Part shown: positions 7,374-36,753 of the stretch, piece by piece | How positions within the stretch are numbered: position 1 is the stretch's first letter | How the letters are laid out: every line of letters begins with the position of its first letter | Assembly (NCBI GenBank): GCA_021811275.1 | Contig: JAJZPI010000011.1 | Coordinates: 1-41,985, forward strand | DNA from: Deltaproteobacteria bacterium | GTDB lineage: Bacteria > Desulfobacterota > Desulfarculia > Desulfarculales > Desulfarculaceae | Length of the DNA: 41,985 nt | Reading direction: 5' to 3' | The notes under the pieces: model-generated | Told to the model about the DNA's origin: nothing | Seen by the model: the letters and a program-made list of their open reading frames with translations, nothing else | Database searches by the model: none | Position numbers and translations under genes: made by a program

Positions 7374-8317
7374 AGGGCCTCCCCGGTGCGCGCGGCGGCG
7401 CGCAGGCGGGCCGAACGGGCCCGCGGGTTGGCCTCCACCTCGGCCGCGCCCGCGCGCAGGGCCTTGGGCGTCAGCAGTTCCACCAGGGGTTTCCTGCCGC
7501 AGGCGCAGACCGCCAGCCGGGGCGGGCAGGTGCAGGGCCGGGCCAGACCGGCCAGGGCCCTTTTCACCCGGCGGTCTTCCAGAGAGTGGTAGGAGATGAC
7601 GGCCACCCGGCCGCCGGGGGTCAGCCAGGCGGGCAGCCCGGCCAGGAAACGGTCCAGGCGCCCAAGCTCGTCGTTTACCGCGATGCGCAAGGCCTGGAAA
7701 ACCTGGGTGGCCGGGTGAAGCTTGCGCTTGCGCCGCTCGGCGGCGGGCAGCGCGGCCTCCACCAGGGCGGCCAGGCGCCCGGTGGTGGCGATGGGCGCGC
7801 TCGCGCGGGCGCGCGTCAACGCCCGGGCGATCACCCGGGCGAAGGGCTCCTCGCCGTATTCCCTGAGCAGACGGGCCAGGGCGTTTTCGTCGAGGTCGGC
7901 CAGAAGCTCGGCGGCGCTTGCGCCCTCCGGTCCCATGCGCATGTCCAGAGGGGCGTCATGGCGGAAGGAGAAGCCGCGGCCCGGCTGGTCGAGCTGCATG
8001 GAGCTCACCCCCAGGTCCAGCAATATGCCGTCGGCCTTTCCCACGCCTGTCTCCCTCATGGCCTCGCCCATGCGGTCGAAGCTTTCCCGCCTTAAAACCA
8101 CCCTGCCGCCCAGGCCCCCCAGCCTTTCCGCGGCCAGCTCGAGCGCCGCCGGATCGCGGTCCAGGCCCAACAGCCGCCCATCTGGGGCGCAGGCATTCAG
8201 GATGGCCGCCGCGTGGCCCCCGGCCCCCAACGTGCCGTCCACGTAGAGGCCTCCAGGCCGGGGGGCAAGGACCGCCAGGGTTTCGGCCAGCATGACCGGC
8301 AGGTGGGGCTGGTTCAC
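7370..8317 (-). CDS. rsmH: 16S rRNA (cytosine-1402-N4)-methyltransferase RsmH
   Basis: RsmH (MraW) methylates N4 of C1402 in the 16S rRNA decoding centre using S-adenosylmethionine. The 315 residues match the family. The N-terminus HLPVMLAETL and the SAM-binding segment YVDGTLGAGGHA are typical, as are GILLDLGVSSMQLD and, towards the C-terminus, VAVISYHSLEDRRVK. It is the second gene of the dcw operon, 21 nt after mraZ, and overlaps ftsL by 4 nt. Confidence 0.97.
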   Translation of the reverse strand: MNQPHLPVMLAETLAVLAPRPGGLYVDGTLGAGGHAAAILNACAPDGRLLGLDRDPAALELAAERLGGLGGRVVLRRESFDRMGEAMRETGVGKADGILLDLGVSSMQLDQPGRGFSFRHDAPLDMRMGPEGASAAELLADLDENALARLLREYGEEPFARVIARALTRARASAPIATTGRLAALVEAALPAAERRKRKLHPATQVFQALRIAVNDELGRLDRFLAGLPAWLTPGGRVAVISYHSLEDRRVKRALAGLARPCTCPPRLAVCACGRKPLVELLTPKALRAGAAEVEANPRARSARLRAAARTGEAL

Positions 8318-8997: not shown

Positions 8998-9285
8998 TAA
9001 CGTCAGGGATAAGGCTGAGATCTCGCGGGCGGGATTTCCTCCCCCTGGGGGCGATGCGCGAGGGCGGTGGAGCATGGTGGGGAGAAGGCCCCGGCAGCGG
9101 GACCCCCATGGATTTACGTCTTTTTTTTCAGAGCGCTTAACTTAACCCTTTTTAATGTGTTAATGTCTGTCTGGTAAACTTCCTACCAGGCCCGTATGGG
9201 CAGGCGGGGCTTGGCCCGGCCAAGCGTGAGGGTATTGTTTTGCCCGGCGCGGGGGAGCCGCCCGAGCCCGTTGGAGGCAGCAGCC

Positions 9286-11550: not shown

Positions 11551-11588
11551 GAGGCGGGCGCGCGGAGCGGCCTGGAAAGAGGCGAGGC

Positions 11589-12098
11589 ATGTCCGAGTTG
11601 GAATTCGCTACCGAGTCTCGCAAGGAGCTTAACGGCCTCCTGCTGTCCGGCAAGTACCTCACCTTCGAACTCGACGGCGAGGAGTACGGCCTGGAGATAC
11701 TCAAGGTCCGCGAGATCATGGGGGTGATGGACATCACCCACGTCCCCCAGACCCTGCCCTTCGTGCTGGGGGTGATCAACCTCCGGGGCAAGGTGATCCC
11801 GGTCCTGGACTTGAGGCTGAAGTTCGGGCTGGAGTACCGCCAACCCGACGAGCGCACCTGCACCATCGTGGTGGAGGTGGTCAGCCCCACCACCGGGGCC
11901 CGCCTGCTCATGGGCATCGTGGTCGATCAGGTGCGCGAGGTGGTGGGCGTGCGCGCCGAGGACATAGACCACACCCCCAGTTTCGGGTTCAACCTCGACA
12001 CCGATTACATCCTGGGCATGGCCAAGATTGACGGCAAGGTCAAGATACTGCTCGACATTGACCGCATCTTCGGAGAAGGGCACCTGGTGGCGGCTTGA
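11589..12098 (+). CDS. cheW: Chemotaxis coupling protein CheW (system 1)
   Basis: CheW bridges receptors and CheA in the chemoreceptor array. The 169-residue single CheW domain begins at about residue 15 (LTFELDGEEYGLEILKVREI) and contains the characteristic VLGVINLRGKVIPVLDLR segment. It lies 38 nt after cheA and is preceded by GGAAAGAGGCG, a plausible ribosome binding site. It is slightly longer than minimal CheW because of an N-terminal extension (MSELEFATESRKELNG). Confidence 0.96.
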   Translation: MSELEFATESRKELNGLLLSGKYLTFELDGEEYGLEILKVREIMGVMDITHVPQTLPFVLGVINLRGKVIPVLDLRLKFGLEYRQPDERTCTIVVEVVSPTTGARLLMGIVVDQVREVVGVRAEDIDHTPSFGFNLDTDYILGMAKIDGKVKILLDIDRIFGEGHLVAA

Positions 12099-12169
12099 AG
12101 CAGGATCGTCCACGGTCGGCGCGCGGCTCCGGGCTGGGGGGTGGCGACGGCGCGGCATTCGTTCCACCA

Positions 12170-13009
12170 ATGGTGGACACCTGCGGCATACAGGTCACCG
12201 AGGCCCAGTATCAGAAGCTGGCGCAGCTCGTATATCGCCTGGCCGGCATCCATCTGGGCGAGAGCAAGAAGGAACTCTTGCGCGCGCGTCTGGCCAAGCG
12301 GCTGCGCCACCTGGGCTGCCGCGACGTCAAGGACTACATCCTGCGCCTGGAGAGCGACTCCTCGGGGCAGGAGTTGGTTTCCTTCCTTGACGTGATCACC
12401 ACCAACAAGACCGACTTCTTCCGGGAGCCGCAGCACTTCGAGTTCCTGGCGCGGGAGATACTGCCCAAGCTGGACAAGCTTTGCGGGCCGGGCACGCCCC
12501 TGCGCATCTGGTCGGCGGCCTGCTCCACCGGGGAGGAGCCCTACACCCTGGCCATGGTGCTCAAGGAGAACGGCTCCTTATGGGAACGGCGAGGGGTGTT
12601 TCTGCTGGCCAGCGACCTCTCCACCAAGGTCCTGGAGCAGGCCAAGCGCGGGGTCTACGCCAACGAGCGCGTGGCGGACCTGCCCCGGCAGATACTAACC
12701 CGCTATTTCCAGCGCGGGACCAACGCCTGGGAGGGCCATGTGCGCATCCGTCCCGACCTGCGCCAGATGGCCCAATTTAAGCGCATCAACCTGATGGACG
12801 ACTTCGAATCCGAAAAGTCCTTCCACCTCATCTTCTGCCGGAACGTGATGATCTATTTCGACAAGCCCACCCAGGAAAGGCTGGTGGAGAAGTTCTTCCA
12901 TTGTCTGGTGCCCGGCGGCTATCTCTTCGTGGGCCACTCCGAGAGCCTGACAGGCATCCGCCACCGCCTGGGCTTCGTGCGCCCGGCGGTCTACCGCAGG
13001 GAAACCTGA
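12170..13009 (+). CDS. cheR: Chemoreceptor methyltransferase CheR (system 1)
   Basis: CheR methylates receptor glutamates with S-adenosylmethionine for adaptation. From the ATG at 12170 the product is 279 residues, the usual length. The N-terminal helical domain is typical (YQKLAQLVYRLAGIHLGESKKELL), with the SAM-binding core WSAACSTGEEPYTLAMVL and the CRNVMIYFDKPTQERL block. The start is uncertain. The ATG lacks a good ribosome binding site, and a TTG at 12095 in the same frame overlaps the cheW stop (TTGA) and would add 25 non-conserved residues. I preferred the ATG on family length. Confidence 0.93.
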   Translation: MVDTCGIQVTEAQYQKLAQLVYRLAGIHLGESKKELLRARLAKRLRHLGCRDVKDYILRLESDSSGQELVSFLDVITTNKTDFFREPQHFEFLAREILPKLDKLCGPGTPLRIWSAACSTGEEPYTLAMVLKENGSLWERRGVFLLASDLSTKVLEQAKRGVYANERVADLPRQILTRYFQRGTNAWEGHVRIRPDLRQMAQFKRINLMDDFESEKSFHLIFCRNVMIYFDKPTQERLVEKFFHCLVPGGYLFVGHSESLTGIRHRLGFVRPAVYRRET

Positions 13010-13011
13010 GG

Positions 13012-13497
13012 GTGGACAAGCGGGTGACGGTGGGGGTGGGCGACCTGGCCCTCAGCGACCGCAAGGGCGCCGAGCTGGTCACCTATTCCCTGGGCTCCTG
13101 CCTGGGCGTGATGATCCACGACCCGGTGGCGGCGGTGGGCGGCCTGCTGCACTTCATGTTGCCGGAGTCCACCCTGAACCCCGAACGGGCGCGCCGGCAG
13201 CCCGGGCTTTTCGCCGACACCGGCCTGCCCCTGCTCTTTCGGGGGGCCTATTCCCTGGGGGCCAGGAAGAGCCGGCTCAGAGTGGTGGTGGTGGGCGGCA
13301 GCCAGGTCATCGACGAGAGCGGGCGCTTCAACGTCGGCGCCCGCAACTACGCCGCCTTGCGCAAGATATTTTGGCGCAACAACGTGCTCATCGACGCCGA
13401 GGACGTGGGAGGCAGGGTCAACCGCACCGCCGGGCTGATGGTGGGCAGCGGCCATATCTGGGTTCGGGTCAACAGCGACGAAGTAAAGAAATTGTGA
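13012..13497 (+). CDS. cheD: Chemoreceptor glutamine deamidase CheD
   Basis: CheD deamidates receptor glutamines and in some bacteria binds the CheC phosphatase. The 161 residues carry the catalytic Cys in YSLGSCLGVMIHD and the His in GLLHFMLP, both diagnostic. The C-terminal half (FNVGARNYAALRKIF...GGRVNRT) is also typical. The GTG at 13012, 2 nt after the cheR stop with AGGGA 9 nt upstream, is the likely start; a GTG at 13024 is an alternative. No CheC gene is present in the window, so CheD probably acts as a deamidase or pairs with a distant partner. Confidence 0.94.
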   Translation: MDKRVTVGVGDLALSDRKGAELVTYSLGSCLGVMIHDPVAAVGGLLHFMLPESTLNPERARRQPGLFADTGLPLLFRGAYSLGARKSRLRVVVVGGSQVIDESGRFNVGARNYAALRKIFWRNNVLIDAEDVGGRVNRTAGLMVGSGHIWVRVNSDEVKKL

Positions 13498-13506
13498 GGA
13501 TGGGCC

Positions 13507-15049
<1,543 letters not shown>

Positions 15050-18320: not shown

Positions 18321-18452
18321 CCCCCACGCCGAATCGACAAGGCTTTTCGCGGCCGGCCGGCCTTCAAGGGCTTTTCTCCTTGCGCCGTCGGCATTTTTGC
18401 CCAAAAATCTGTGCTCGAGGGCTGCGGCCGGTTTCGCGGGAGGAATACGCCC

Positions 18453-20093
18453 TTGGATCTCGATGAGCTTAAAATCCTTTTGGTGGGCGCGAGGCCGGAA
18501 ATCATCACCCGGCTGGAACAGGGCTTGGCCGCCGAGGGCCAGGTCCTTGGATTCCTGCGGGTGGCGGAGGGCTGGCCCCAAGCATGGGATATCTTGGCGG
18601 AGGCCAGGCCCAACCTGCTGCTGCTCGAACTGGACCAGCTTGCCGGCGGGGGGGCCAGCCCAGCGACGGATTGGATCGGCCGCCTGACCCAGCTTTGGCA
18701 GGAGCTGCCGGAACTGGCCGTGGTCGCCCTGGTGACGCCCGCCCTGGCCGGCCCGGAGCGGACCGGGCCGGCCGAACCGGCCCTGGCCGCCGGCATCCAG
18801 GACGTCATCGATCTCTGCGCAACGGCCGGGGACCGCGCCCGCCCGGGCCTGGGCGCCTCGCTACGCCGGGCCCGGCTCCGCCAGCGGGCCGTCGCCGACC
18901 TGCGCCGCAGCGAGCAACTGAACCGCTCCATCGTCACCAACCAGACCGAACTGATCTGCCGCTTCACCCCAGAAGGTGAGGTGACCTTTGCCAACCCCGC
19001 CTTCCGCCGCTACTTCCGCTGGGACCAGGGAGAGCGCCGCCGGCACAACATCTTCGCCCGCCAATCCGAACAAGAGCGCAAACGCACCTGGATGCAGCTG
19101 GAGGCCCTGACCCCCGAGCATCCCCTGGCCAGGGTCGAAAAGCCCTTCGTGGCCAAGAACGGCGAGGAACGCTGGCAGCAGTGGACCAACCTGGCCATCT
19201 TCGACCGCCGGGGCCGCCTGGTGGAATACCAGTCCGTGGGCACGGACATCACCGAGCGCAAGCGCATGGAGGAGGCATTACAGGTGGTCGAGGCCAACCT
19301 GCGCAGCCTGATCATCGCCAACGCCGACGCCATGATCGTGGTCGACGCCTCGGGCCAAGTGCGCTTCGTCAACCCCGCTGCCGAGGCCATGCTGGGCCGC
19401 CGGGCATCGGAGCTGGCCGGACGCGGCTTCGATTTCGCCCTCAACCTGGACAAGCGCCAGGAGATCCACCTGCTGGACGCCCAGGGCGAAGACCTGGTGG
19501 CCGAGATGCGCGTGGTGCAGACCAAATGGCAAGACCAGCCAGCCTTTTTGGCCAGCCTCCGCGACGTCACCGAGCTGGTGCGTCTGCGCGAGGAGCTGCG
19601 CTCGCTCTCTCTGGTCGACGAGCTGACCGGCCTGTTCAACCGGCGGGGCTTCACCACCCTGGCCCAGCAGCAACTCAAGACCGCCAACCGAATGAAGCGG
19701 CGCATGCGCCTGTTCTTCCTGGACCTGGACGAACTCAAGACCATCAACGACAACCTGGGTCACCGCATGGGCGACCAGGCGCTGGTGGCTGCGGCCGCGC
19801 TGCTCAAGGCCACCTTTCGCGAGTCGGACATCCTGGCCCGGGTGGGCGGCGACGAATTCGTGGCCTTGACCATGGAGGCCGAGGAGGACAGCACCTCGCC
19901 GGTCGGCGAGCGTCTCGAGGCCAACGTGCGCGAGTTCCAGGAGCGGGAAAAGCCCCTCTACCGCCTCTCCTTCAGCCTGGGCACCGCGCTTTACGACCCC
20001 GCCCTGCCCACCGCCCTTGAGGAACTCCTCTACCAGGCCGACATCTTGATGTATCAGAACAAGCGCCGCAAACAGGTCGCCCGCTCCGTCTGA
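18453..20093 (+). CDS. Diguanylate cyclase: degenerate receiver-like N-terminus, two PAS domains, GGDEF
   Basis: It synthesises c-di-GMP from two GTP. The 546 residues start with a receiver-like fold (LKILLVGARPEIITRLEQGL) lacking the paired acidic residues of a true receiver. PAS domains follow at about 165-285 (IVTNQTELICRFTPEGEV) and about 290-385 (NADAMIVVDASGQVRFVNPAA). The GGDEF domain has an intact GGDEF at 465-469 and the inhibitory RxxD site (RESD, 456-459) at the canonical five-residue spacing, so product feedback is expected. I chose TTG 18453 because GGAGGAA lies 7 nt upstream; a GTG at 18411 in frame has no such site. No transmembrane segment is visible. Confidence 0.92.
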   Translation: MDLDELKILLVGARPEIITRLEQGLAAEGQVLGFLRVAEGWPQAWDILAEARPNLLLLELDQLAGGGASPATDWIGRLTQLWQELPELAVVALVTPALAGPERTGPAEPALAAGIQDVIDLCATAGDRARPGLGASLRRARLRQRAVADLRRSEQLNRSIVTNQTELICRFTPEGEVTFANPAFRRYFRWDQGERRRHNIFARQSEQERKRTWMQLEALTPEHPLARVEKPFVAKNGEERWQQWTNLAIFDRRGRLVEYQSVGTDITERKRMEEALQVVEANLRSLIIANADAMIVVDASGQVRFVNPAAEAMLGRRASELAGRGFDFALNLDKRQEIHLLDAQGEDLVAEMRVVQTKWQDQPAFLASLRDVTELVRLREELRSLSLVDELTGLFNRRGFTTLAQQQLKTANRMKRRMRLFFLDLDELKTINDNLGHRMGDQALVAAAALLKATFRESDILARVGGDEFVALTMEAEEDSTSPVGERLEANVREFQEREKPLYRLSFSLGTALYDPALPTALEELLYQADILMYQNKRRKQVARSV

Positions 20094-24794: not shown

Positions 24795-25697
24795 ATGAAC
24801 TCCTTGAGGCTCTTGGCCTTCGACGGCGGCGGGGCTCTGTGCCTCTATCTGCGTCTGGGCGGAGTGAGCCGGGTGCTGGTGGACTGCGGCTGTCCGTCCC
24901 CGGCCGCTCCCCTGGCCTTTCTGCGCGAGCAGGGTGAGCTTGGCCCCTTGCGGCCTTTGAGCCGGCACCTGCGCCCGGCCGACCTGGGGGCCAAGAGCGA
25001 GGTCTGGCTGGGGGTCCTGGGCCTGGTGCGGGGCCTGGCGCTTCGGCCCGGGGGCTCCTGGGTATTCTGGCAATCCCTGCCCCGCCAGGGCCCGGGCTTC
25101 AGCCTGCAGGCCAGGGTGCTGCCCAGGCAGGAGGTGCCGGGCACCCCCGAGCTGGACTTCTTCGAGCCGCCGCTGATGGTGCTGGGGCTGAGCGGAGGCC
25201 AGATCGCCGCGGGCGGCGGGGGGCCGGCGCGGTGGACGGCCCGCTCGGCCCTGGCCTGCTCCCTGCCCCGCCTGCCCGCCCAGGGTGGCGACCTTCTGGT
25301 GCGGAGCGATCTGCCGGAGGCGGATTGGCGCGCCCTTCAGGCCGATCCTGGCCTGAGACCGCAACCGGAGCGCCCGGCCCTGCTCTCCGAGGTCCCGGCG
25401 GCGGCGCCGCCCCCGGCTGAGCCAGCCGTCGAGGCGGGCCGCCTGCTGGAGCGCGGGCTGCTTTTGGGTCTCCTGCCCTGGCTGATACTGGGCGGGCTCT
25501 GTCCGGGGGCGGGCGAGGGATTCCTTTCCACTGACAGCCAAGGGGAGGTAAGCCTGCGCACCCCGCCCGTGGGCAGCCTCAGCCTGGAGGCCAACGAGCA
25601 GGGATCGCTCCAGCTCCACGCCCGGCCTCTGGCCGGCAATCTCCTGGCCTGGCGGGGAAGCTTCGGCCCGGGACTCAGCCGCCCAGTATCTGCCTGA
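24795..25697 (+). CDS. Unrecognised protein, 300 residues
   Basis: I do not recognise a family. The ATG at 24795 has GGTGGAG upstream. The N-terminus (LRLLAFDGGGALCLYLRLGGVSRVLVDCGC) superficially recalls the first strands of a metallo-beta-lactamase fold, but no HxHxDH metal site exists. A Pro/Ala-rich linker (about 195-215) precedes one hydrophobic stretch (about 222-240, LLLGLLPWLILGGLCPG) that could be a membrane helix. The last 23 bp overlap the 3' end of the convergent cheY. Codon composition matches the neighbours, and the frame is open with normal third-position GC bias, so it is probably a real gene. Confidence 0.6.
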   Translation: MNSLRLLAFDGGGALCLYLRLGGVSRVLVDCGCPSPAAPLAFLREQGELGPLRPLSRHLRPADLGAKSEVWLGVLGLVRGLALRPGGSWVFWQSLPRQGPGFSLQARVLPRQEVPGTPELDFFEPPLMVLGLSGGQIAAGGGGPARWTARSALACSLPRLPAQGGDLLVRSDLPEADWRALQADPGLRPQPERPALLSEVPAAAPPPAEPAVEAGRLLERGLLLGLLPWLILGGLCPGAGEGFLSTDSQGEVSLRTPPVGSLSLEANEQGSLQLHARPLAGNLLAWRGSFGPGLSRPVSA

Positions 25698-26058
25698 GCT
25701 TGGTTTCCAGGATCTCCACCGTGAAGGGCTTGACGATATAGTTGCTGACCCCGGCCCGGATGGCCTGAACCACGTGGTCCTTCATGCCCTCGGCCGTGAG
25801 CATTATGAAGGGCAGGCCCTTCAGTTCGTCGCTGCTGCGCACGTGGACCAGCAGCTGCAGGCCATTCATCACCGGCATGTTCCAGTCGGAAATGACCAGG
25901 TCGATTATCTCCCGCTCCAGGATGGAGACCGCCTCCTCGCCGTTGGCCGCTTCCACGACGTTGTTGAGGCTCAACTCCGAAAGGGCATTTCGGATCAGCT
26001 TGCGCATAGCCGGGAAGTCGTCGACGATGAGCACGCGCATGCCAGGTTCGATAGGCAT
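25675..26058 (-). CDS. cheY: CheY-type response regulator (system 2)
   Basis: A stand-alone receiver of 127 residues. The acidic pocket (VLIVDDFPAM), phosphoacceptor D58 in SDWNMPVMNG (very like classical CheY), the Thr of MLTAEG and the Lys of YIVKPF are intact. I chose the ATG at 26058, 8 nt after GGAGG; a TTG two codons upstream is less likely. It is transcribed divergently from the second cheA and converges with the unknown gene at 24795. It is the likely phosphate acceptor for that CheA. Confidence 0.94.
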   Translation of the reverse strand: MPIEPGMRVLIVDDFPAMRKLIRNALSELSLNNVVEAANGEEAVSILEREIIDLVISDWNMPVMNGLQLLVHVRSSDELKGLPFIMLTAEGMKDHVVQAIRAGVSNYIVKPFTVEILETKLRQILGG

Positions 26059-26152
26059 AGTCAAGGCCTCCAGCGGGGAATTGACGCGGATGCGGAGTAA
26101 CGGCCCAAACTCGATAAAAACGCCAGCCTAAGATTGCTGTTTTTTTTGGGAG

Positions 26153-26182
26153 AGTATAGCTGATAGAATGGCCAAGCCACAA
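26153..26182 (-). promoter_or_regulatory. Possible promoter of the divergent cheY
   Basis: On the minus strand, TATACT (26153-26158) follows TTGTGG (26177-26182) with an 18-bp spacer. The -10 is good and the -35 is weak. The rest of the 238-bp divergent region (26059-26296) contains a T8 run at 26140-26147 and no recognised sigma28 or sigma54 element for cheA. Confidence 0.35.
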
Positions 26183-26296
26183 TAATCAAGCCCAGGCCGC
26201 TTGAGTTGCCCCTTCCGGCCGCCTACCGCGCCGGCCTGGGGCGGGAACGGTCGAGCCTTGTGCAATCCGATATACACACAGGGGCTGTGGCAGCCA

Positions 26297-29200
26297 ATGT
26301 CCGCTTTTGTGAATGAAGCCTTGATCAAGGATTTCGTGGCTGACAGCCGCGAGCATCTTTCGTCGATAGAACCCGACCTCCTAGCCCTGGAAGGCCAGGG
26401 CGATCAGGTGGACCCGGAGGTGGTCAATCGGGTCTTCCGGGCCGTGCACAGCATCAAGGGCTTCTCCTCCTTCCTGGGCTTCAAGAACCTCAGCGACTTG
26501 AGCCACACCATGGAGAACCTGCTGACCTGCTTCCGGGAGGGGAGGCTCTCCACCACCCCGGAGCGCATCGACGCCCTTTTGGCCGGGGTGGACAAGCTCA
26601 GGGTGCTGGTGGAGGACATCCAGGCCAGCCCCGACGTCTCCTGCGAAGAGGAGATGAGCTCCCTGCGCCAAGCCCTGAGCGATGGTCAGGCCGGCCCCGC
26701 CGATCAGGCCGGCCCCGCAGGCCAGACTGGCCCGGCCGGCCCAACCGCCCCGCCGACGGCCCCGACCGGCGCGATAGTGGGCCAGGGGACGGCCCGCTTG
26801 GCCGCCGAGGGCGGCGGCGAACTGGACGCGGTGGTCTTCGCCCTGGAGCCGAACTGTCTGGAGCAGGCGCGCCAGGCCGGGCTGAGCCTGCTGGCGCTCT
26901 GGCTGGACCCCGCCCGGGACCTCCAGGGCAAGGGCCGCACGGCCGAGGATTTCCTGAAGACCCTGGACTCCTGCGGCGGCTGCCTGGTCAGCGACCTGGG
27001 CCAGCCTCAAGCCGAAGGCCCCTGGCGGCACTGCCTGCTGGCCACCTTCATAGATGACCTGGAGATCGCCGCCGCCAGCCTGGACCTGGACGAGGGCCGT
27101 CTGCGATTCCTCCCGGCCGAGGCCGCCCTGGCCGGGGAGCCCGAGGCTGTCGATGCGCCGGCCGCGCCGGCGGCCGCCCCGGCGGGCAAGCCCCGGCCGC
27201 AGGGCCGGGGGCAAGGCCGGCTGGCGATGGCGGCGCCCTGGCCCGGCCAGGCCCAGCCCTTCCCCCTGGAGCTGGGGCGCGGCGATTTGGAGGCAGCCCT
27301 GGCCAGCAACCTCTTCTTCTGGGCCGGCTGGGTGGAGGCCGCCGACTTGGGCGGCAGGAAGGACGCCTTGGCCTCCTTCCTGGCCAACCTGGACTCCTGC
27401 GGCCGGCGGCTCTATTGCGACGTGGAAGGGGCGGCGGCCCGGGGAGGGGTCGGACGCTTCCTGCTGGCCTCGGTGATCGAAGAGCAGGAGATGGCCGAGG
27501 CCGCCCTGGAGCTTCCCCCGCAGCGCCTGGCGCGCCTGGAGTCTTCTCTGTTCGAGGCGGCCCTCGCCTTGGCGGCGCCGGCCCCCGACAGCCCCGCCGC
27601 CGCACTCGCGCCCACGGTGGCGGAGCAGGCCCCCGCCTCCGCCTTTCCAGCCCCGGCCCCGGCCCCGGCCGCCGAGGCAAAGCCCGTCCAGCCGGTGGAG
27701 ACCATCCGGGTGGGCGTGGACCTCATCGACCAGCTCATCAACCTGGCCGGCGAACTTGTCTTGGGGCGCAACCAGCTGGTGCGCCTGCTACGCGACTCGT
27801 CCCGCCGCGACCCCAGCCTTAGCCCGGTGATGCAGAAGATGGACCAAGTCACCAGCGAGCTGCAGGAAAACATGATGCAGCTGCGCATGCAGCCCCTTGG
27901 CTACGTGCTGGGCAAGTTCCCCCGGGTGGTGCGCGAACTCTCGCGCCAGCTGGGCAAGCGGGCCGAGCTGACCATCCTGGGGGCCGACGTCGAGCTGGAC
28001 AAGTCCATCCTGGAGCAGCTCTCCGATCCGCTCACCCATCTGGTGCGCAACAGCCTGGACCACGGCCTGGAGCCTCCCGAGGAGCGCCAGTCCCTGGGCA
28101 AGCCTCCGGCGGGCCAGGTGATCATGCGCGCCTTCCACGAGGAAGGGCTGGTCAACCTGGCCCTCCAGGACGACGGCCGGGGCATCGACGCCGAGAAGGT
28201 GGCGGCCAAGGCCCTGGCCTTGGGATTGATCGGCCCCGAGGAGGTGCGCCGGCTGAGCCAGGCCGAGAAGCTTGCGCTCATCACCCTGCCCGGGCTTTCC
28301 ACCGCTCAGAAGGTGACCGACGTCTCCGGCCGGGGGGTGGGCATGGACGTGGTGGCCACCAACATCCAGAAGCTGGGCGGCCACCTGCAGATCGAGAGCC
28401 AGCCCGGGGTGGGCACCACCGTGCGTCTCCGACTGCCGCTGACCATGGCCATCATCCCCTCCCTGGTGGTGGGCACGGGCGATCTCGTCTTCGCCATCGC
28501 CCAGACCGACGTGCAGGAGTTGGTCAGCATCCAGTCCCGCCACGCCTCCGAGCGCCTCGAGATGGTTGGCGAGGCGCCGGTGATGCGCCTGCGCGACCGG
28601 CTCCTGCCCCTGGTGCGCCTGTCCGACGCCCTGGGCCTGGAACGTCGCTTCCGCCATCCGGCCACCGGCGAGCTATTGGCCGACCGGCGCAAGCGCATCG
28701 CCGACCGCCGCGGGCGGGGAGCCGGCCAGGCCGCAGGCGCGCCCACCCCCCAGGAAATTCGGCGCGCCGGCTCGGAACGGCGGGGCCGGCGGGCCGACGA
28801 CACCAACGTGGTGGTTCTCAGGGTGGGGGCCAACCGCTACGGGCTCATCGTCGACCAGCTCTACGGGGCCGAGGAGATCGTGGTCAAGCCCCTGCCCCGG
28901 CACATCAAGGACTGCCACTGTTTCAGCGGGGCCACCATCATGGGCGACGGCCGGGTGGCCATGATCCTGGACACCGGGGGCATCGCCGAGCACGCCCGCC
29001 TGCGCTTCGGCGAGATAAGGGCCGCCGAGGACCTCTACCTGCAGGAGAAGGCCAGCCGCGAGGCGGCCGAGGCCCAGGGGCCGGAGCGCAGCCTGCTCCT
29101 GTTCGGCAACGTCTCCGGCGAACTGCTGGCCCTGCCCCTGGCCGAGGTGGCCCGGCTGGAGGTGGTCGATCCCCAGGCCATCCAGCGGGTGGCGGGCCGG

Positions 29201-29560
29201 GAGTGCGTGGAGTACGGCGGCGGCGGGCTTTCCCTTCTGCGCCTGGAGCGCTATCTGCCCGTGGCCCCCTGCCCACCCCAGGCCGCGCCGATCTACGCCA
29301 TCATCCCCAAGACCGGCGACCATCAGGTGGGCATCGTCTGCGCGGGCATCGAGGACGTGGCCGTCACCCGCGCCGAGGTGCAGCCCTTCCCCGGCCCCTA
29401 TCCCGCCGCCCGGGGAGTGGTCGACCTGAAGGGCCGCCTGGCCCTGCTCTTGAGCGCCCAGAGCCTGCTGGAATCCTTCGCGCGCGACCATCCCACCCCG
29501 GCGGGGATCAACCCGGCCGCCGCCGAGGCCGCGCCAGCCGACGCTTCGGAGGAGGCCTAG
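26297..29560 (+). CDS. cheA: Large CheA histidine kinase (system 2) with duplicated P2-like domains and two CheW domains
   Basis: This receptor-coupled kinase has 1087 residues, far longer than usual (650-750). The HPt domain carries H51 (FRAVHSIKG). Two similar domains of about 95 residues (about 174-273 and 321-414) share the pattern FL-x-LDSCG...LLA-I-D/E-E-A and resemble the CheY/CheB-docking P2 domain. Dimerisation begins at about 477. The HATPase has HLVRNSLDHG near 581 and SGRGVGMDVV near 678. The first CheW domain carries a basic insertion (about 790-835), and a second CheW-like domain lies at about 930-1075. ATG 26297 gives the HPt N-terminus; the frame is open from 26201. No C-terminal receiver is present. 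Confidence 0.94.
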   Translation: MSAFVNEALIKDFVADSREHLSSIEPDLLALEGQGDQVDPEVVNRVFRAVHSIKGFSSFLGFKNLSDLSHTMENLLTCFREGRLSTTPERIDALLAGVDKLRVLVEDIQASPDVSCEEEMSSLRQALSDGQAGPADQAGPAGQTGPAGPTAPPTAPTGAIVGQGTARLAAEGGGELDAVVFALEPNCLEQARQAGLSLLALWLDPARDLQGKGRTAEDFLKTLDSCGGCLVSDLGQPQAEGPWRHCLLATFIDDLEIAAASLDLDEGRLRFLPAEAALAGEPEAVDAPAAPAAAPAGKPRPQGRGQGRLAMAAPWPGQAQPFPLELGRGDLEAALASNLFFWAGWVEAADLGGRKDALASFLANLDSCGRRLYCDVEGAAARGGVGRFLLASVIEEQEMAEAALELPPQRLARLESSLFEAALALAAPAPDSPAAALAPTVAEQAPASAFPAPAPAPAAEAKPVQPVETIRVGVDLIDQLINLAGELVLGRNQLVRLLRDSSRRDPSLSPVMQKMDQVTSELQENMMQLRMQPLGYVLGKFPRVVRELSRQLGKRAELTILGADVELDKSILEQLSDPLTHLVRNSLDHGLEPPEERQSLGKPPAGQVIMRAFHEEGLVNLALQDDGRGIDAEKVAAKALALGLIGPEEVRRLSQAEKLALITLPGLSTAQKVTDVSGRGVGMDVVATNIQKLGGHLQIESQPGVGTTVRLRLPLTMAIIPSLVVGTGDLVFAIAQTDVQELVSIQSRHASERLEMVGEAPVMRLRDRLLPLVRLSDALGLERRFRHPATGELLADRRKRIADRRGRGAGQAAGAPTPQEIRRAGSERRGRRADDTNVVVLRVGANRYGLIVDQLYGAEEIVVKPLPRHIKDCHCFSGATIMGDGRVAMILDTGGIAEHARLRFGEIRAAEDLYLQEKASREAAEAQGPERSLLLFGNVSGELLALPLAEVARLEVVDPQAIQRVAGRECVEYGGGGLSLLRLERYLPVAPCPPQAAPIYAIIPKTGDHQVGIVCAGIEDVAVTRAEVQPFPGPYPAARGVVDLKGRLALLLSAQSLLESFARDHPTPAGINPAAAEAAPADASEEA

Positions 29561-29561
29561 C

Positions 29562-29978
29562 ATGATCCACCAGTTCGTGACCTTCAAGGTGGACGGCCGC
29601 CTCCTGGGCGTGGAGATCGTGCGCGTGCGCGAGGTGAACCGGGTGCTGTCCAGCACCCCGGTGCAGCACGCCCGGCCCTACGTGATGGGCCTGGTCAACC
29701 TGCGCGGGCAGATCGTGACCCTTTTCGACCTCGGCCTGCGCCTGGGCCTGGGGCCGCGCCGGCTGACCGCCTCGACCCACAACGTGGTGCTCAAGCAGGA
29801 GGACGTGGGCCTGGTGGTCGATGAGATCGGCGAGGTGGTGGAAGTGAACCAGGACGACCTGGAAGGCCCTCCGGCCAATCTGGGCGGCCTGGCCCGCCAA
29901 TTCGTGGCCGAGGTGGCCAAGCTCAAGGACGAACTGTTGGTGATTTTGGCCGTGGACAAGTTGTTGACCCTGGAGTGA
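29562..29978 (+). CDS. cheW: CheW coupling protein (system 2)
   Basis: A 138-residue single-domain CheW (FVTFKVDGRLLGVEIVRVREV, VMGLVNLRGQIVTLFDL). The ATG is one base after the cheA stop, so the two are translationally linked. It probably couples the downstream receptor to the large CheA, which itself already carries two CheW-like domains. Confidence 0.94.
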   Translation: MIHQFVTFKVDGRLLGVEIVRVREVNRVLSSTPVQHARPYVMGLVNLRGQIVTLFDLGLRLGLGPRRLTASTHNVVLKQEDVGLVVDEIGEVVEVNQDDLEGPPANLGGLARQFVAEVAKLKDELLVILAVDKLLTLE

Positions 29979-30047
29979 TCCCCGGCCGGCCCGCGCCGGC
30001 CGACGCGCGCGCGGCGACGACACGCAACCGGAGCGCGAGAGGAGAAG

Positions 30048-30584
30048 ATGCGAATGTCCAAGCTATACCCGACCAGGCTGGGCCTGGCGGCGGCCCTGAC
30101 CGCGGCCCTGTGCCTGGGCGGAGCGGGAGTTATCTTCGCCCAGGGCGCGGCCAAGCCCGCCGCGCTGGTTTCGGGCAAGCCGGGGGCCCAGGCCAAGACC
30201 CCGGTTTTCGTGGGCTCCCAGAGCTGCCAGGAATGCCACGAGAAGGAGTTCAAGAGCTTCAAGGCCAACGCCAAGAAGGCCCACGCCTATGAGAGCGTGA
30301 GAAAAATGCTCCACGCCGTCTCCGGCGATGAGCTGAAGAAGTGCTACGAATGCCACACCACGGGCTATGGCCAGCCAGGCGGCTTCGTCAGCGAGGCCCA
30401 GACGCCGGGACTGGCCGAGGTGGGTTGCGAGTCCTGCCACGGCCCCGGCTCGGAGCACGTCCAGAGCCAGGACCGCAAGGACATCAAGGCCAAGTTAAAC
30501 GCCAAGGACTGCGTGTCCTGCCACAACGCCGAGCGGGTGGCGGCCTTCAACTTCAAGCCCCTGATCTACGGCGGCGCGCACTAG
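30048..30584 (+). CDS. Periplasmic tetrahaem cytochrome c
   Basis: A 178-residue exported protein. The signal peptide covers about residues 1-31 (hydrophobic core [15 protein letters not shown], then VIFAQ). Four CxxCH haem-attachment motifs lie at C60-H64, C99-H103, C127-H131 and C155-H159, the last within DCVSCHN. The pattern is like cytochrome c554/multihaem family proteins. An alternative ATG at 30054 is better spaced from the GAGGAG site. It lies between cheW and a haem-motif receptor in the chemosensory operon, an unusual place for an electron-transfer protein. It may report periplasmic redox state to that receptor, which is inference. Confidence 0.93.
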
Positions 30585-30645
30585 CGGCCCGGCGGGAAGG
30601 GCCGGGGCCCTTCCTCCGCGCGGAGCCGAAACCAAGGAGCCATGC

Positions 30646-32583
30646 ATGGGCACTACCGAGAACAAATACACGGGGCGCATCTGGGCCAAGCTGGTCCTCA
30701 GCCTCTCCGTGGTGATAGCCCTGGGCCTGGGGGCGGTGATCTTCATGAGCCTGCGCACCCAGAGCGCCCAGCTGGGCGGGATGATGCTGCAACAGGGCGT
30801 GAACCTGGCCGAGTCGGTGGAGGGCGGCATGAACGACGCCCTTTCCATCGGCAACAACCAGGTGGTGCGCCAGCAGTTCGCCAGGCTGCACGAGCGCCTG
30901 CCCGAGACCGACGTGGCGGTCTTCGACTTCAGGGGGCGGGTGGTCTTCGCCACCGGCAAGGAGATGCTCGAGAAGAACCTCTCCGAGTTCGTGGCGGAAA
31001 AGAACGTCATGGACACGGTGGCCCTGATGCTGGAAAAGGGCCAGGCCCCCACCGAGCCCCTGCCCAGCCAACGGGGCGGGTCTCCGGGCATCTCGGTGCT
31101 GCGGCCGATCATGAACGAAGCCCGCTGCTACCACTGCCACGGCTCCTCGCGCAAGGTGCTGGGCGGCATCATGGTGCGCACCGGCACCAGCGCCGCGCTG
31201 GCGGCCATGGCTCAGGCCCGCAACATCAGCGTGGGCGTGGGCCTGGCCTGCCTGGCGGCGGTGGTGGTGCTGGTCTTCGTGCTCAGCCGGCGGCTGGTGG
31301 GGCGGCCCATTCAAGCCACGGTGGCCATGCTCAAGGACATGGCCCAGGGCGAGGGCGACCTCACCAAGCGCCTGCAACCCTTCTCCAACGACGAGCTGGG
31401 CGAGCTGGTGGCCTGGTTCAACCGCTTCGTGGAAAAGCTCCAGGGCCTGTTCAAGCAGGTGGCCGACGATGTGGGCATCCTCTCCGGCTCCGCGGCAGCC
31501 CTGACCGAAGTCTCCTCGGGCATGACCGGCAAGGCCCGGGAGATGGACGAACGCTGCGCCAAGGCCGCCGACCGCTCCGTGCGGGCCACAGAGAACATCC
31601 AGAACGTGGCCGCGGCCGCCGAGGAGGTTAGCACCCAGGTGGCTGGGGTGGCCGGGGCCTCCCAGGAGATCAGCCGCAACATGCACGGCATCGGCCAGGC
31701 CACCGAGCAGGTTTCCCACAAGCTGCACAACGTGGCCGCCTCGGCCGAGGAGATGTCCAGCTCGGTCAACACCATCGCCACGGCGGTGGAGCAGATGTAC
31801 GCTGCCCTGAACGAGGTTAGCAAGAGCGCCAGCCGGGGGGCCAGCGTCACCAGCGACGCCTCCCAGCGGGCCGACCAGACCTCGTCCATCGTCAACACCC
31901 TGGGCCAGGCGGCCAAGGAGATCGGCGACGTGGTGGACCTGATCAAGGGCGTGGCCAGCCAGACCAACCTGCTGGCCTTGAACGCCACCATCGAGGCGGC
32001 CAGCGCCGGCGAGGCCGGCAAGGGCTTCGCCGTGGTGGCCGGCGAGGTCAAGGAGCTGGCCAAGCAGACCGCGGGGGCCACCGAGGAGATCCGCGACAAG
32101 ATAGAATCAATGCAGAACAACACCGAGCAGGCGGTGGTGGCCATACAGAAGATCGTGGAGTTCATCACCGAGATAAACTCGATCATGACCACCATCGCCA
32201 GCGCGGTCGAGGAGCAGACCGCCACCACCAACGAGATCAGCCGCAGCCTGGCCGAGGCGGCCACCGCCGCCAGCAACGTCTCGGAAAACGTGCACCAGGC
32301 CGCCGCCGGGGCCGAGGACACCGCTCGCAACGTGGCCCAGGCGGTGGAGGCCGAAACCCTGGTGGCCCGCAACATCGCCGACGTTTCCCAGGCGGCCCAG
32401 GCCATTGCCAAGGAATCCTCCGACGCCGCCCAGAGCATCGACAGGCTGGGCGAGCACGTGGCCGGCCTGCGCGAGGCCTCGCTGGCCACCGCCCAAGGGG
32501 CGGGCAGCACCGACCGCTCGGCCTCCGAGCTGGACGAGCTGGCCAGGCAGCTCATGGCCATTGTCGGATCCTTCAAGGTGTGA
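30646..32583 (+). CDS. Methyl-accepting chemotaxis protein with a c-type haem motif in its periplasmic sensor
   Basis: A transmembrane chemoreceptor of 645 residues. TM1 lies at about 13-35. The periplasmic domain spans about 36-185 and contains CYHCH at 161-165, a canonical haem c attachment motif. TM2 is at about 192-214, followed by HAMP, then the long signalling coiled coil with the conserved tip ([20 protein letters not shown], then [20 protein letters not shown]). There is no C-terminal NWETF-type CheR tether. Haem-bearing receptors sense oxygen or redox in Desulfovibrio and Geobacter. Its stop overlaps the cheB GTG (GTGA). Confidence 0.95.
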
Positions 32584-33788
32584 GCCGCGCCGCCGTGAAC
32601 GAGGAGCAAGGCAAGGCCCGAATCCTGGTCGTCGATGAGAGCGTCCTGTACCGCCGACTCCTGATCGAGGCGCTGGCCGAGTTGCCCGAGGTCGCCCAAG
32701 TCCAGGCCGCGGCCAACGCCAAGATAGCGCAGGCCCGGCTGGCCCTGGGGCCGGTGGACCTGGTGCTCTTCGATTTGGAGTGCGGCCAGGAAGGCGGCCT
32801 GGAAGTCATCAAGACCATTCGCCAGACCTACCCCGGAACGGCGGTGGCGGCCATGGGCCAGCCCGATGCCGGGGCCTCCCAGGCGCAGGCATCCAAGATC
32901 ATCCGGGCGCTGGAGATGGGGGCCCTGGACGTGGTCATCAAGCCTTCGGGAAAGGCCGGCCCCGATGGCCTGCGGGAATTCCGCCGCCAGGTGTCCGGCC
33001 TGCTCCTGGGCATGGCCGGACGCCGGCACGCCTCCCGCGCCCGCCAGCTCCTGGCCTCCGGCGGCCTGCCCGCGCCAGCCGCGCCGGCGCCTGGCATCGC
33101 CCTGCCCCGCCCCCGGGAGCTGAAGACCGCGCCGGCTCCCGCCGAGCCGCCCCGTCCGGCCCCCGCCATCGTCCCCGCCGGCTTGCAGGTGGTGGCCATC
33201 GGGGTTTCCACCGGCGGGCCCAACGCCTTGAAGAGCGTCATACCCCGTCTGCCGCGCGGGCTGGGCCTGCCCGTGCTCCTGGTCCAGCACATGCCCGCCA
33301 ATTTCACCCGGGCCCTGGCCGAAAGCCTGGACCGCTACTCGTCACTGGCCGTGCGCGAGGCCCAAGCCGGCGAGCCGCTCATGCCCGACACCGTCTACGT
33401 GGCCCCGGGCGGGGTCCACATGATCGTGCGCGTCGAGCGCGGGGCCTTCGGCTCCCGCCTGGTGATCGGCCTCGACGACGGCCCCCCGGTCAACAGTTGC
33501 AAGCCTTCGGTGGACGTGCTGATGCTCTCCCTGGCCAAGCAGCCGGGCCTGCGCGCGCTCACGGTGGTCATGACCGGCATGGGCAATGACGGACAAGCCG
33601 GGGTGGAGGCCTTGAAGCGCGCCGGCGGTTACTGCCTCAGCCAGAGCGAAGAGTCCTGCGTGGTATACGGCATGCCCCGGGCGGTGGACGAGGCGGGACT
33701 CTCCGACGAGCGGGTGGGGCTCGAAAACCTGGCCGAGCGCATCACGGCTGTCGTCAAGCAAAGCGCCGACAAGGGGGGCCAGGCATGA
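32580..33788 (+). CDS. cheB: CheB methylesterase/response regulator (system 2)
   Basis: A 402-residue CheB. The receiver has VVDES and phosphoacceptor D65 ([11 protein letters not shown]). A long Pro/Ala-rich linker (about 155-200) is followed by the esterase domain, with Ser in [11 protein letters not shown], His in [11 protein letters not shown] and Asp in GMGNDGQAG. The start is GTG 32580, overlapping the receptor stop by 4 nt; a second GTG six codons in (32595) is possible. The receiver is more divergent than in system 1 (LFDLECGQ instead of LDIEMP), which may reflect pairing with the unusual CheA. Confidence 0.94.
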
Positions 33789-34660
33789 CCGCCAACCTCA
33801 CCCCCCAGGAGTTCAGCAACCTCCGCGAATTCATCCACCAGCGTTGCGGCATCCTTCTGGGCGACGACAAGGCCTATCTCATAGAGCACCGCCTGGCCAA
33901 GCTCCTGGAGGAGCAGCATTGCAAGACCTTTGGCGAACTCTACTTCAAGGCCAAGAACGACCAGCGCACCGGCAACCTGAGCCTGGCCATCGTCGACGCC
34001 ATCACCACCAACGAAACCTTCTGGTTCCGCGACCAGCGGGTGTTCGACCTGCTGCGCGAGGTGATTTTGCCGGCGCTTTATCAGGAGGTGGCCAAGGGCC
34101 AGCGGGAAACCATCCGGCTGTGGTCGGCGGCCTGCTCCACCGGGCAGGAGCCCTACTCCTTGGCCATGGTGGCCCAGGACTTCTTCCGGGCCCACGGCGG
34201 TGAGGACGCCTGCCGCCGGCACGTGAAGATACTGGCCACGGACATCTCGCCGAGCGCCCTGGCCTCGGCCTGCCAAGGCGTCTACAACAACCTTTCCATG
34301 GGCCGGGGCCTGCCGGAGAGCCACCTGGACCGTTTTTTCCAGCGCCGGGAGGGTGGCCTTTGGGAGGTGCGCGACAGCTTGCGCTCGCTGGTGGAGTTCA
34401 GGCAGCACAACCTGCGCGACCCCATGGTCGGCTTCGGCGTCTTCGAGGTGGTGGCCCTGCGCAACGTGACCATCTACTTTTCGGAAGAGGTCAAGCGCCA
34501 GCTCTTTTCCCGCCTGACCAAGGCATTGGTCCCCGGCGGCCACCTCTTCCTGGGCACCGGCGAGACCCTGGGCTTTTTCAGCAAGGCCTTCGACCTACAG
34601 GACTACCAGGGCATGAACTACTACCGCCTGCCCCCCCGTCCCGCCCCTGCGGCGGCCTGA
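33785..34660 (+). CDS. cheR: CheR receptor methyltransferase (system 2)
   Basis: 291 residues. The N-terminal domain is LREFIHQRCGILLGDDKAYL, the SAM-binding core WSAACSTGQEPYSLAMVA, and the later block ALRNVTIYFSEEVKRQL replaces the usual CRNVLIYF. The start overlaps the cheB stop by ATGA. It is the last gene of the operon, and a 43-bp palindrome begins one base after its stop. Confidence 0.95.
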   Translation: MTANLTPQEFSNLREFIHQRCGILLGDDKAYLIEHRLAKLLEEQHCKTFGELYFKAKNDQRTGNLSLAIVDAITTNETFWFRDQRVFDLLREVILPALYQEVAKGQRETIRLWSAACSTGQEPYSLAMVAQDFFRAHGGEDACRRHVKILATDISPSALASACQGVYNNLSMGRGLPESHLDRFFQRREGGLWEVRDSLRSLVEFRQHNLRDPMVGFGVFEVVALRNVTIYFSEEVKRQLFSRLTKALVPGGHLFLGTGETLGFFSKAFDLQDYQGMNYYRLPPRPAPAAA

Positions 34661-34661
34661 A

Positions 34662-34704
34662 ACCAATCAGCGTTCAAGCAAATGATTTGAGCGCTGATTG
34701 GTAT
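34662..34704. repeat. 43-bp palindromic element, copy B
   Basis: The outer stem is CCAATCAGC (34663-34671) / GCTGATTGG (34693-34701). The inner stem GTTCAA / TTTGAGC encloses a 9-nt loop. It is the same length and register as copy A at 15051-15093, with a compensatory T-A to C-G change in the outer stem. The remaining gap to 34835 holds no gene. Confidence 0.85.
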
Positions 34705-34835
34705 CAGGCAGCGGCGGCACCCGCCAAACTTGCCTTTGTATTTGCAATGAACCTGGAACGGGAGCGCGCAAGCTGCGCCCGAACGACGGCCTCGCCGACA
34801 CGCTACGGGCGCGGCGGCACGCCGCCGGTACGCGC

Positions 34836-36572
34836 CTATTCGAGGACGACGCGGTTGCGGCCGTTGTTCTTGGCCTGATAGAGGAGCTCGTCGGCGCGGG
34901 TGAGCATCTGGTCTAGGTTGCCGCGAGCGCTGGTGACCACGCCCGAGGAAATGGTCATGCCGAAGCCTGCCACCCCGGTGAGGACGGGGGTGCGCTCCAC
35001 CTGGCGGCGGAGCTGGTTGAAGGCGACCAGGGTGGCGGGGCGGTCCAGCCCGGGGGCGAGCACGCCGAATTCCTCACCGCCCAGCCGGGCCACCAGGGAC
35101 GGCTCCGGAAACAGCCGCTCCATTATGCGGGCCAGCTGCTTCAGGGCCTGGTCGCCGGCGGCGTGGCCGTGGGTGTCGTTGATGAGCTTGAAATGGTCGA
35201 TGTCGATCAGGCCCAGGGCCAGGCCCTCGCCTAGTTCGCCCTGGCGCTCCAGTATCCCGCGTCCGGCCTCGAAGAACCAGCGCCGGCTGAAAAGCCCGGT
35301 GAGGTAATCCCGCCGGGAGGATTCCTCCAGGCGCTTGATCAGTTCCAGGAGCTCGACGTTTAGGTTGACCCGTCCCTGGAACTCCTCGTTCTGGAAGGGC
35401 TTGGGCAGGAAGTCGTTGGCCCCGGCCTTTAGGAAGCGCGCCGGCAGCGAGGGCGAACTCTCGGCGGAGATGCCGATGATGGCCAGATGGTCCCGGCTGG
35501 CCAGCCCGCGCAGGCGGCCCACCAGCTCCAGGCCGTCCATGACGGGCATCTGGTAGTCGGTGATGACCATGCTCAAGTCCGGATGGACGGCGTAGACATC
35601 CAGGGCCTCCCGGCCGTTGGAGGCTGTAAGGGTCTGATAGCCCTGCAGGCGCAGGAGCCCGGCCACCAGCTCGCGGATGGGCCGGGTGTCGTCCACCACC
35701 AGGATATTGACCGCCAGGTTGCGGCTCAGACGGTTTATCAGGCGGGTGACGTACTCCAGGTCACGGGGTCCGCCCTTGACCACGTAGTCCACCACGTTCT
35801 TGGCCAGGATGCGCTCGCGCACCTGGTCGTTGAATGTGGCGGTAAGGATGATGGGGGCCAGGCCGTGGCCCAGGGCCAGGTCAACCACCTCGCCGTCGGG
35901 GGCGTCAGGCAGGTTCAGGTCCAGGACCCCCACGAAGAATCTGCGTCCGGACTCGAGAAGCCGGCGCGCCTCGGCCAGGGTAAAAGCCGGCACCGGGGCG
36001 AAGGCGGTGTCCTCGGCGATGCGCTGGCAGAGCAGGCGGGAAGTGAGCTGGTTGTCCTCCACCACCAGCACCTCGCTGGCCCCGCCGCGCACCGTGACCA
36101 GGCCGGAGGGCTGGCCCTCTGAGGCCGAGGCTTGCCGGCGGGCGGGAGCGGGGGCGGCTTCCTGCAAGGCGTAGAGTCCGGGCAGCTCCTCGGAAGCGGG
36201 GACCCGGTGTTCCTGGGGCGGCTGCCCGATCATGCGGCGCAGGCGGTCCACGGCCAACAGCAGGGTGTCCACGGCCTCGGGGCCGGCGTCGAGGCTTCCC
36301 TGGCGCAGGCGGGTGAGCACGTTCTCGACCAGATGGCTGAAGTCCTTCAGCTCCGTCAGGCCCACCAGGGCGGCCGCGCCCTTGATGGAATGCACCGCCC
36401 GCATAACCCGGTTGAGCGCAGCCTGGACGGCCTCGGCCTCGCCGCCCTCCAAGGCCAGCAGGTCGGGCTCGATCTGGTCCAGGTGCTCGCGGGCCTCTTC
36501 CGCGAAGCTGACCAGCAGGTCTGCCTCGACCCTGGACTCCAAGCTGGAGCTGTTGTGGTTTTCCCGGTTCAT
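34836..36572 (-). CDS. HPt-receiver-receiver-GGEEF diguanylate cyclase
   Basis: A 578-residue cytoplasmic signalling protein. The HPt domain has H61 (MRAVHSIKG). Receiver 1 spans about 167-285 with D218 (VLDLNLP), and receiver 2 about 288-405 with D339 (VITDYQMPVMDG). The C-terminal cyclase domain has GGEEF at 498-502. The RxxD product-inhibition site is absent (PEPS in its place). I chose the ATG at 36572 (MNRENHN), 6 nt after GGGG; a TTG at 36608 is in frame. It is convergent with the system 2 operon. HPt plus receivers suggest that it is phosphorylated through that CheA or acts as a relay, but the partner is not proven. Confidence 0.93.
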   Translation of the reverse strand: MNRENHNSSSLESRVEADLLVSFAEEAREHLDQIEPDLLALEGGEAEAVQAALNRVMRAVHSIKGAAALVGLTELKDFSHLVENVLTRLRQGSLDAGPEAVDTLLLAVDRLRRMIGQPPQEHRVPASEELPGLYALQEAAPAPARRQASASEGQPSGLVTVRGGASEVLVVEDNQLTSRLLCQRIAEDTAFAPVPAFTLAEARRLLESGRRFFVGVLDLNLPDAPDGEVVDLALGHGLAPIILTATFNDQVRERILAKNVVDYVVKGGPRDLEYVTRLINRLSRNLAVNILVVDDTRPIRELVAGLLRLQGYQTLTASNGREALDVYAVHPDLSMVITDYQMPVMDGLELVGRLRGLASRDHLAIIGISAESSPSLPARFLKAGANDFLPKPFQNEEFQGRVNLNVELLELIKRLEESSRRDYLTGLFSRRWFFEAGRGILERQGELGEGLALGLIDIDHFKLINDTHGHAAGDQALKQLARIMERLFPEPSLVARLGGEEFGVLAPGLDRPATLVAFNQLRRQVERTPVLTGVAGFGMTISSGVVTSARGNLDQMLTRADELLYQAKNNGRNRVVLE

Positions 36573-36753
36573 ATTCACCCCGGCGGCCGGTTCGTTCTCT
36601 AGCTTCAATGATAACCCATTTCCGCCAGCACGTTAAGGAACCCGTGCCTTTGCCGCTATTTTTCCCTTGGCTGGCGATAAGACCGGCCTGGTCCCCGAAG
36701 CCGCGCGCGCCTAGCGGGCAAATAATTCACGGCTGTGAGTAATGCTATGTTGG

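Follow-up and report, generated by a model that had tools for sequence, protein, structure and literature searches.

A tetrahaem c554-like cytochrome paired with a predicted c-haem chemoreceptor in a chemosensory locus of a Desulfarculaceae bacterium

The window analyzed in this study (41,985 nucleotides; positions 1–41,985 of contig JAJZPI010000011.1, GenBank assembly GCA_021811275.1) originates from an anaerobic bacterium of the family Desulfarculaceae and was found to contain a chemosensory operon in which the genes for a tetrahaem cytochrome and a haem-motif receptor lie next to each other. Open reading frames and Pfam matches gave the following order on the plus strand: cheA (26291–29560; 1089 aa, likely start ATG 26291), cheW (29562–29978), a gene predicted to encode a periplasmic tetrahaem cytochrome (30048–30584), the receptor gene (30646–32583), cheB with receiver (REC) and methylesterase domains (32580–33788), and cheR (33785–34660). 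A cheY-like gene for a single-domain response regulator (25675–26064, minus strand; Response_reg E = 1e-28) is divergent from cheA, and a gene for an HPt-REC-REC-GGEEF diguanylate cyclase (34836–36608, minus strand; Pfam and NCBIfam) is convergent with the operon. The set of CheA, CheW, methyl-accepting chemotaxis protein (MCP), CheB, CheR and CheY is thereby complete at one locus. A preliminary description of this DNA had given the same gene order, which was confirmed, and had also reported overlaps of 1–4 nt at most junctions; such overlaps, of 4 nt, were found only at receptor/cheB and cheB/cheR, while cheA and cheW are 1 nt apart. The cytochrome gene is the sole gene of the operon with wide gaps on either side (69 nt from cheW and 61 nt from the receptor gene), which fits a cytochrome cassette. 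CheA consists of an HPt/P1 domain, a long linker, H-kinase_dim, HATPase and three CheW stretches according to Pfam. The linker (26900–27700, approximately residues 200–440) had no Pfam match; by eye, two segments resembling each other, each about 85 residues long, were seen in it, and a self-BLAST reported no repeat.

The cytochrome carries the haem motifs CQECH, CYECH, CESCH and CVSCH in the arrangement of the C554 domain, and it matched the Pfam profile Cytochrome_C554 with 71.5 bits compared to a cut-off of 20.8 (E = 1e-19). The top PDB match of its AlphaFold2 (AF2) model, built from 51 relatives with a predicted local distance difference test score (pLDDT) of 89, was Nitrosomonas europaea cytochrome c554 (1bvb; template modelling score, TM, 0.61 as TMq, E = 3e-4), indicating a c554 fold. 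With 45.5 bits against a cut-off of 400 it is not an equivalog of Nitrosomonas CycA as defined by NCBIfam. The N-terminus is a hydrophobic segment of the Sec-signal kind, as judged by eye. Over 78 cytochrome–receptor pairs collected as described below, the His residues of the four CxxCH motifs, H137 and the C-terminal residue H178 were invariant, and residue 79 was His in 43 of the 78. By sequence, the window cytochrome is a member of a distinct c554-like subfamily.

The receptor consists of a transmembrane helix, a periplasmic c-haem Cache domain, a second transmembrane helix, HAMP and MCPsignal, as predicted by Pfam and the AF2 fold. A motif search located its haem attachment motif CYHCH at residues 161–165 (C161-Y-H163-C-H165; 31126–31140, plus strand). 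Within the window, seven CxxCH-type DNA matches were found compared to 1.9 expected from shuffles, and five of the seven lie inside the cytochrome and receptor genes. The AF2 model of the sensor (pLDDT 92.9) showed a Cache/PAS fold in which the helix that bears the motif (159–165) lies between strands 146–156 and 171–180. In a Foldseek search with this model, Geobacter sulfurreducens GSU0935 ranked second, and CitA and WalK were also matched; a VIA-align comparison of structures did not have 3b42 among the best 50 listed. On the sequence level, the family sensor profile matched GSU0935 (E = 1e-9) and GSU0582 (E = 3e-7). The window receptor scored 23.5 bits with PF21563, below the cut-off of 27, and its relatives in L077, L081, L082, L087 and L092 scored above it; a Pfam scan gave no match of the window receptor to PF11845. 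C-x-H-C-H is kept in all 78 paired receptors. Sequence and model thus support the assignment of the receptor sensor as a c-haem Cache domain of the GSU0935/GSU0582 kind.

Subfamily cytochromes were collected from a phylum sample of 395 genomes and from a second collection of genome contigs, the genome sampling of the two overlapping in part. In the phylum sample, 43 places scored at least 155 bits with the cytochrome profile and the next one 102, a clean score gap that delimits the subfamily. All 43 cytochromes, present in 40 genomes, were shown to have a c-haem Cache receptor gene directly downstream on the same strand, mostly at a distance of less than 130 nt, and chance insertion of the cytochrome was rejected as a general explanation on this ground. 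In the second collection the receptor gene was found directly downstream of 40 of 45 close relatives; as two of the other five are cut at contig ends, this corresponds to 40 of 43 testable places. More distant C554 cytochromes had no neighbouring receptor with the family motif (0/35), and in the sister tier (80–102 bits) 11 of 28 compared cytochromes were paired. Five of these sister-tier pairs (L191–L195) contain receptors with C-x-K-C-H, at least three of which are kinases, several being histidine kinases. The reverse pairing was looser, a cytochrome being present for 41 of 54 high-scoring sensors. Since the pairing is asymmetric, the cytochrome appears to serve the receptor, which can act alone, and the gene neighbourhoods suggest that the cytochrome is a dedicated accessory of the receptor. 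A search of plasmids gave nothing.

Two further ideas on the pairing were rejected. A different multihaem cytochrome as upstream partner of the unpaired sensors was not found, as twelve of them had no multihaem gene just upstream in the flanks examined. Nor is H163 a mark of paired receptors, as several unpaired sensors also have C-x-H-C-H, others have C-x-N-C-H, and the sister group has C-x-K-C-H. High-scoring haem sensors without a cytochrome and with C-x-N-C-H instead of C-x-H-C-H were seen in L179, L181, L182 and L184.

The paired receptors were found to carry different outputs (MCP, simple kinase or hybrid kinase), and in a tree of the 78 pairs a single change of output type was seen among the rows scored. 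Some pairs are orphans and others lie within che operons: cheA was found near 23 of 90 distinct cytochrome loci, and 11 of these 23 also have a GGDEF gene. A recurrent operon type, present at about ten loci, has the organization REC-CheA-cytochrome-MCP(PAS)-CheW-CheR-CheD-CheB-REC/GGDEF, the full domain set being confirmed by Pfam in L177. The window operon belongs to a separate type, grouped by CheA similarity with L060, L063, L066, L145 and L165. Besides, one che cluster (L061:5795–11903) contains the cytochrome gene directly before cheA, without an adjoining receptor gene. The signalling domain of the window receptor showed 64% identity to that of the orthologous operon in genome G010 and 57% to that in L165, compared to about 30% to the remaining MCPs of the same genome, where short stretches reached no more than 39%. 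Judging from this resemblance to like che operons rather than to the MCPs of the same genome, the window pathway looks insulated. A flagellar output is possible, as FliG is present in the source genome. The same genome (contig C202; L051:589–2663) contains a second, orphan pair with an MCP output, whose cytochrome is 56% identical to that of the window, and no che genes were found near it.

We consider, with a probability of roughly 0.55, that the locus encodes a chemosensory pathway complete in itself, for which the cytochrome and the receptor together form a two-protein haem module as input. The cytochrome and the receptor sensor would both be periplasmic, and the cytochrome would dock on the receptor and set the state, redox or ligand, of the receptor haem; this state would alter the Cache domain and thereby CheA activity. 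CheA would phosphorylate CheY and CheB and may also phosphorylate the cyclase through the P1-like HPt or the REC domains, so that redox conditions would set swimming or surface behaviour together with cyclic di-GMP (c-di-GMP). As the receptor also occurs without the cytochrome, the cytochrome would be an accessory that tunes or couples the receptor. More tentatively, with odds a little short of even, the pair may represent an undescribed class of two-protein extracytoplasmic haem sensor, in which a tetrahaem c554-like cytochrome dedicated to a one-haem Cache receptor connects it with the redox pool of the periplasm, and which feeds chemotaxis, two-component and c-di-GMP outputs in bacteria of the Desulfobacterota type and in some Nitrospirota.

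Several observations weigh against this interpretation. G010 is the only other genome among 21 of the order that has the window operon, which consists there of cheA-cheW-receptor-cheB-cheR plus cheY and the cyclase gene (57% identity for the receptor, 51% for cheY and 48% for cheA over nearly full length), and it has no cytochrome gene between cheW and the receptor gene (assembly 86% complete; one stop codon in the CheA match). Thus either the window lineage acquired the cytochrome or G010 lost it, and the idea that the pair is obligate in the window operon type was rejected. The subfamily cytochrome of G010 is located in a separate orphan pair (L054) and might act in trans. Furthermore, in the second collection three true exceptions without a receptor were found (L061, L100, and L101), and 13 of the 54 high-scoring sensors have no cytochrome. 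In favour of the interpretation, distances between cytochromes correlated with those between sensors (r = 0.41 for the 78 pairs, compared to at most 0.18 in 2000 shuffles); shared species history accounts for part of this correlation, and a paralogue swap within five genomes gave three positive and two slightly negative differences.

The distal side of the receptor haem also differs at this locus. A conserved Met of the family, in the motif PM-x-x-GD, aligns to residue 26 of the GSU0582 chain, which corresponds to Met60 when counted back from His143. Met60 of the Geobacter sensor is reported as the distal ligand that leaves on oxidation (PMC8396549). The window receptor has Leu66 at this position, counting also against our interpretation; Met was found there in 57 and Leu in 18 of the 78 receptors, and the window receptor sits in an 18-row clade of Leu66-type receptors (SH-aLRT, the Shimodaira–Hasegawa-like approximate likelihood ratio test, 99). 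The loss of the distal Met also suggests that the window clade does not merely reproduce the redox switch of Geobacter. Met62 (residues 62–66 correspond to 30829–30843) was present in 11 of the 21 receptors lacking Met66 (two of these gapped) compared to 4 of 57 with Met66 (Fisher p = 3e-5, the rows being related), and is perhaps a distal ligand shifted by one helix turn, which we regard only as a lead from the alignment. Of the redox relay from cytochrome to receptor proposed in the preliminary description, the specific partnership (43/43 in the phylum sample) and the c-haem Cache sensor are supported, whereas the G010 operon and the Leu at the distal Met position count against a strict relay at this locus. 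The cytochrome is not absent from the operon in all relatives, the outcome that had been named as speaking against the relay, though it is absent in the nearest one.

Instead of donating electrons, the cytochrome could be a co-receptor that binds or converts a ligand: an open haem would bind or consume nitric oxide (NO), or nitrite, sulfite or hydroxylamine, and the receptor haem would read the result as an NO-type sensor. In cytochrome c554 of Nitrosomonas one of the haems is five-coordinate, with an open site, and one or two haems of the window cytochrome may likewise have an open site, given that H137 and H178 are its only invariant His residues outside the CxxCH motifs and that H79 is present in 43 of 78. 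Leu in place of the distal Met favours an open or water-bound haem in the window receptor, although most paired receptors have kept the Met. NO-sensor properties are described for sCache_heme domains fused to signalling outputs (PMC12889525); the hosts of the pair are, however, mostly sulfate reducers by name, for which NO is not an obvious main signal, and we regard the co-receptor as rather unlikely. Still less probable is a role as a common electron carrier of the periplasm, serving respiration or extracellular electron transfer and co-expressed with the receptor merely since both are needed in the same conditions. Syntrophic sulfate reducers have among their listed conserved carriers a periplasmic cytochrome c554 (PMC10553843), which may or may not belong to this subfamily, and the gaps on either side of the window cytochrome gene would suit such a carrier, but a general carrier would be expected to occur without the receptor as well, yet every subfamily cytochrome of the phylum sample was paired, and it is the more distant C554 proteins that are not.

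As regards the c-di-GMP branch, the cyclase could have nothing to do with the operon beside it and receive no signal from this CheA. Its gene is convergent and lies outside the six-gene operon, and its orthologue in genome G001 is located on a contig without a che gene, which ends right beside the orthologue. Pfam detected only one REC domain in the cyclase; the other, more N-terminal REC is backed by the NCBIfam CbrR profile over residues 179–587. The HPt domain of the cyclase showed 42–44% identity to P1 of this CheA, a likeness compatible with direct phosphorylation of the cyclase, but it also showed 42% identity, over a shorter match, to the P1 domain of the window's other CheA, a further point against our interpretation. 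It was thus rejected as a specific copy of P1 of this CheA, and the driving kinase is not singled out. On the other hand, the cyclase orthologue adjoins the orthologous che operon in G010, and REC-GGDEF genes close the sister che operons. As the pair is found repeatedly within che operons, one type of which has REC-GGDEF at its end, the cyclase at the window locus is probably not there by chance; we therefore hold an unrelated cyclase to be unlikely and a c-di-GMP output, judged from gene neighbourhood, to be likely. The c-di-GMP output put forward in the preliminary description is accordingly kept as a probable branch, without the HPt domain pointing to this CheA in particular.

The second che cluster of the window (9196–15049) was predicted to encode CheA (784 aa), CheW, CheR, a REC protein and CheB, and after it lies a gene for a PAS-PAS-GGDEF protein (18411–20093). 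Cell-wall and division genes (Mur ligase, penicillin-binding transpeptidase with PASTA, MraW) were found on the minus strand at 3521–8317.

Haem-c chemoreceptors, sCache_heme domains, c554 cytochromes and CheA-driven c-di-GMP pathways are already known; by gene content, the new element is the tight cytochrome–receptor gene pair and its reuse with different outputs. The open-access literature searched, including the sCache_heme preprint and the Geobacter papers, yielded no earlier account of the pair (subscription papers lay outside the search). The class 40H MCPs GSU0935 and GSU0582 of G. sulfurreducens (PDB 3B42 and 3B47) resemble the window receptor in having a periplasmic Cache/PAS-like sensor with one c-haem between two transmembrane helices, followed by HAMP and an MCP domain; they differ in that no partner cytochrome is reported in the literature examined, and the window receptor has C-x-H-C-H and a Leu at the Met60 position. 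The sCache_heme domains (DUF3365/Tll0287; Deshpande et al., 2026, preprint, PMC12889525) share the Cache fold, a CxxCH on a short helix between strands and MCP or kinase outputs, whereas the part of the preprint seen contains no partner cytochrome gene and their family PF11845 is not matched here. N. europaea cytochrome c554 (1BVB/1FT5) has four haems, the Pfam C554 domain and the fold in common with the window cytochrome, which is shorter, has another set of conserved distal His residues, scores far under the equivalog cut-off and is encoded beside a receptor gene.

Among pathways, the electrode-sensing network EsnABCD of Geobacter (PMC5585712) also links an MCP, CheW and CheA to a diguanylate cyclase response regulator, in a relative that respires metals, but EsnA has no periplasmic domain, there is no cytochrome partner, and the genes are scattered. 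Cytochromes and a Cache chemoreceptor are both required for redox-directed behaviour when Shewanella congregates around electron acceptors (PMC5789149); there the cytochromes act through respiration, without a dedicated cytochrome–receptor gene pair. DcrA of Desulfovibrio vulgaris is, like the window receptor, a periplasmic c-haem MCP in a sulfate reducer and responds to redox and oxygen, and the part of PMC8396549 seen describes no partner cytochrome for it. For the haems of receptors such as DcrA, GSU0582 and GSU0935, the pair offers a concrete candidate for a reaction partner in the cell, namely a cytochrome that is almost never found without its receptor. If the cytochrome does deliver electrons, the pair would give bacteria a potentiometer in the periplasm with which to steer movement and biofilm formation.

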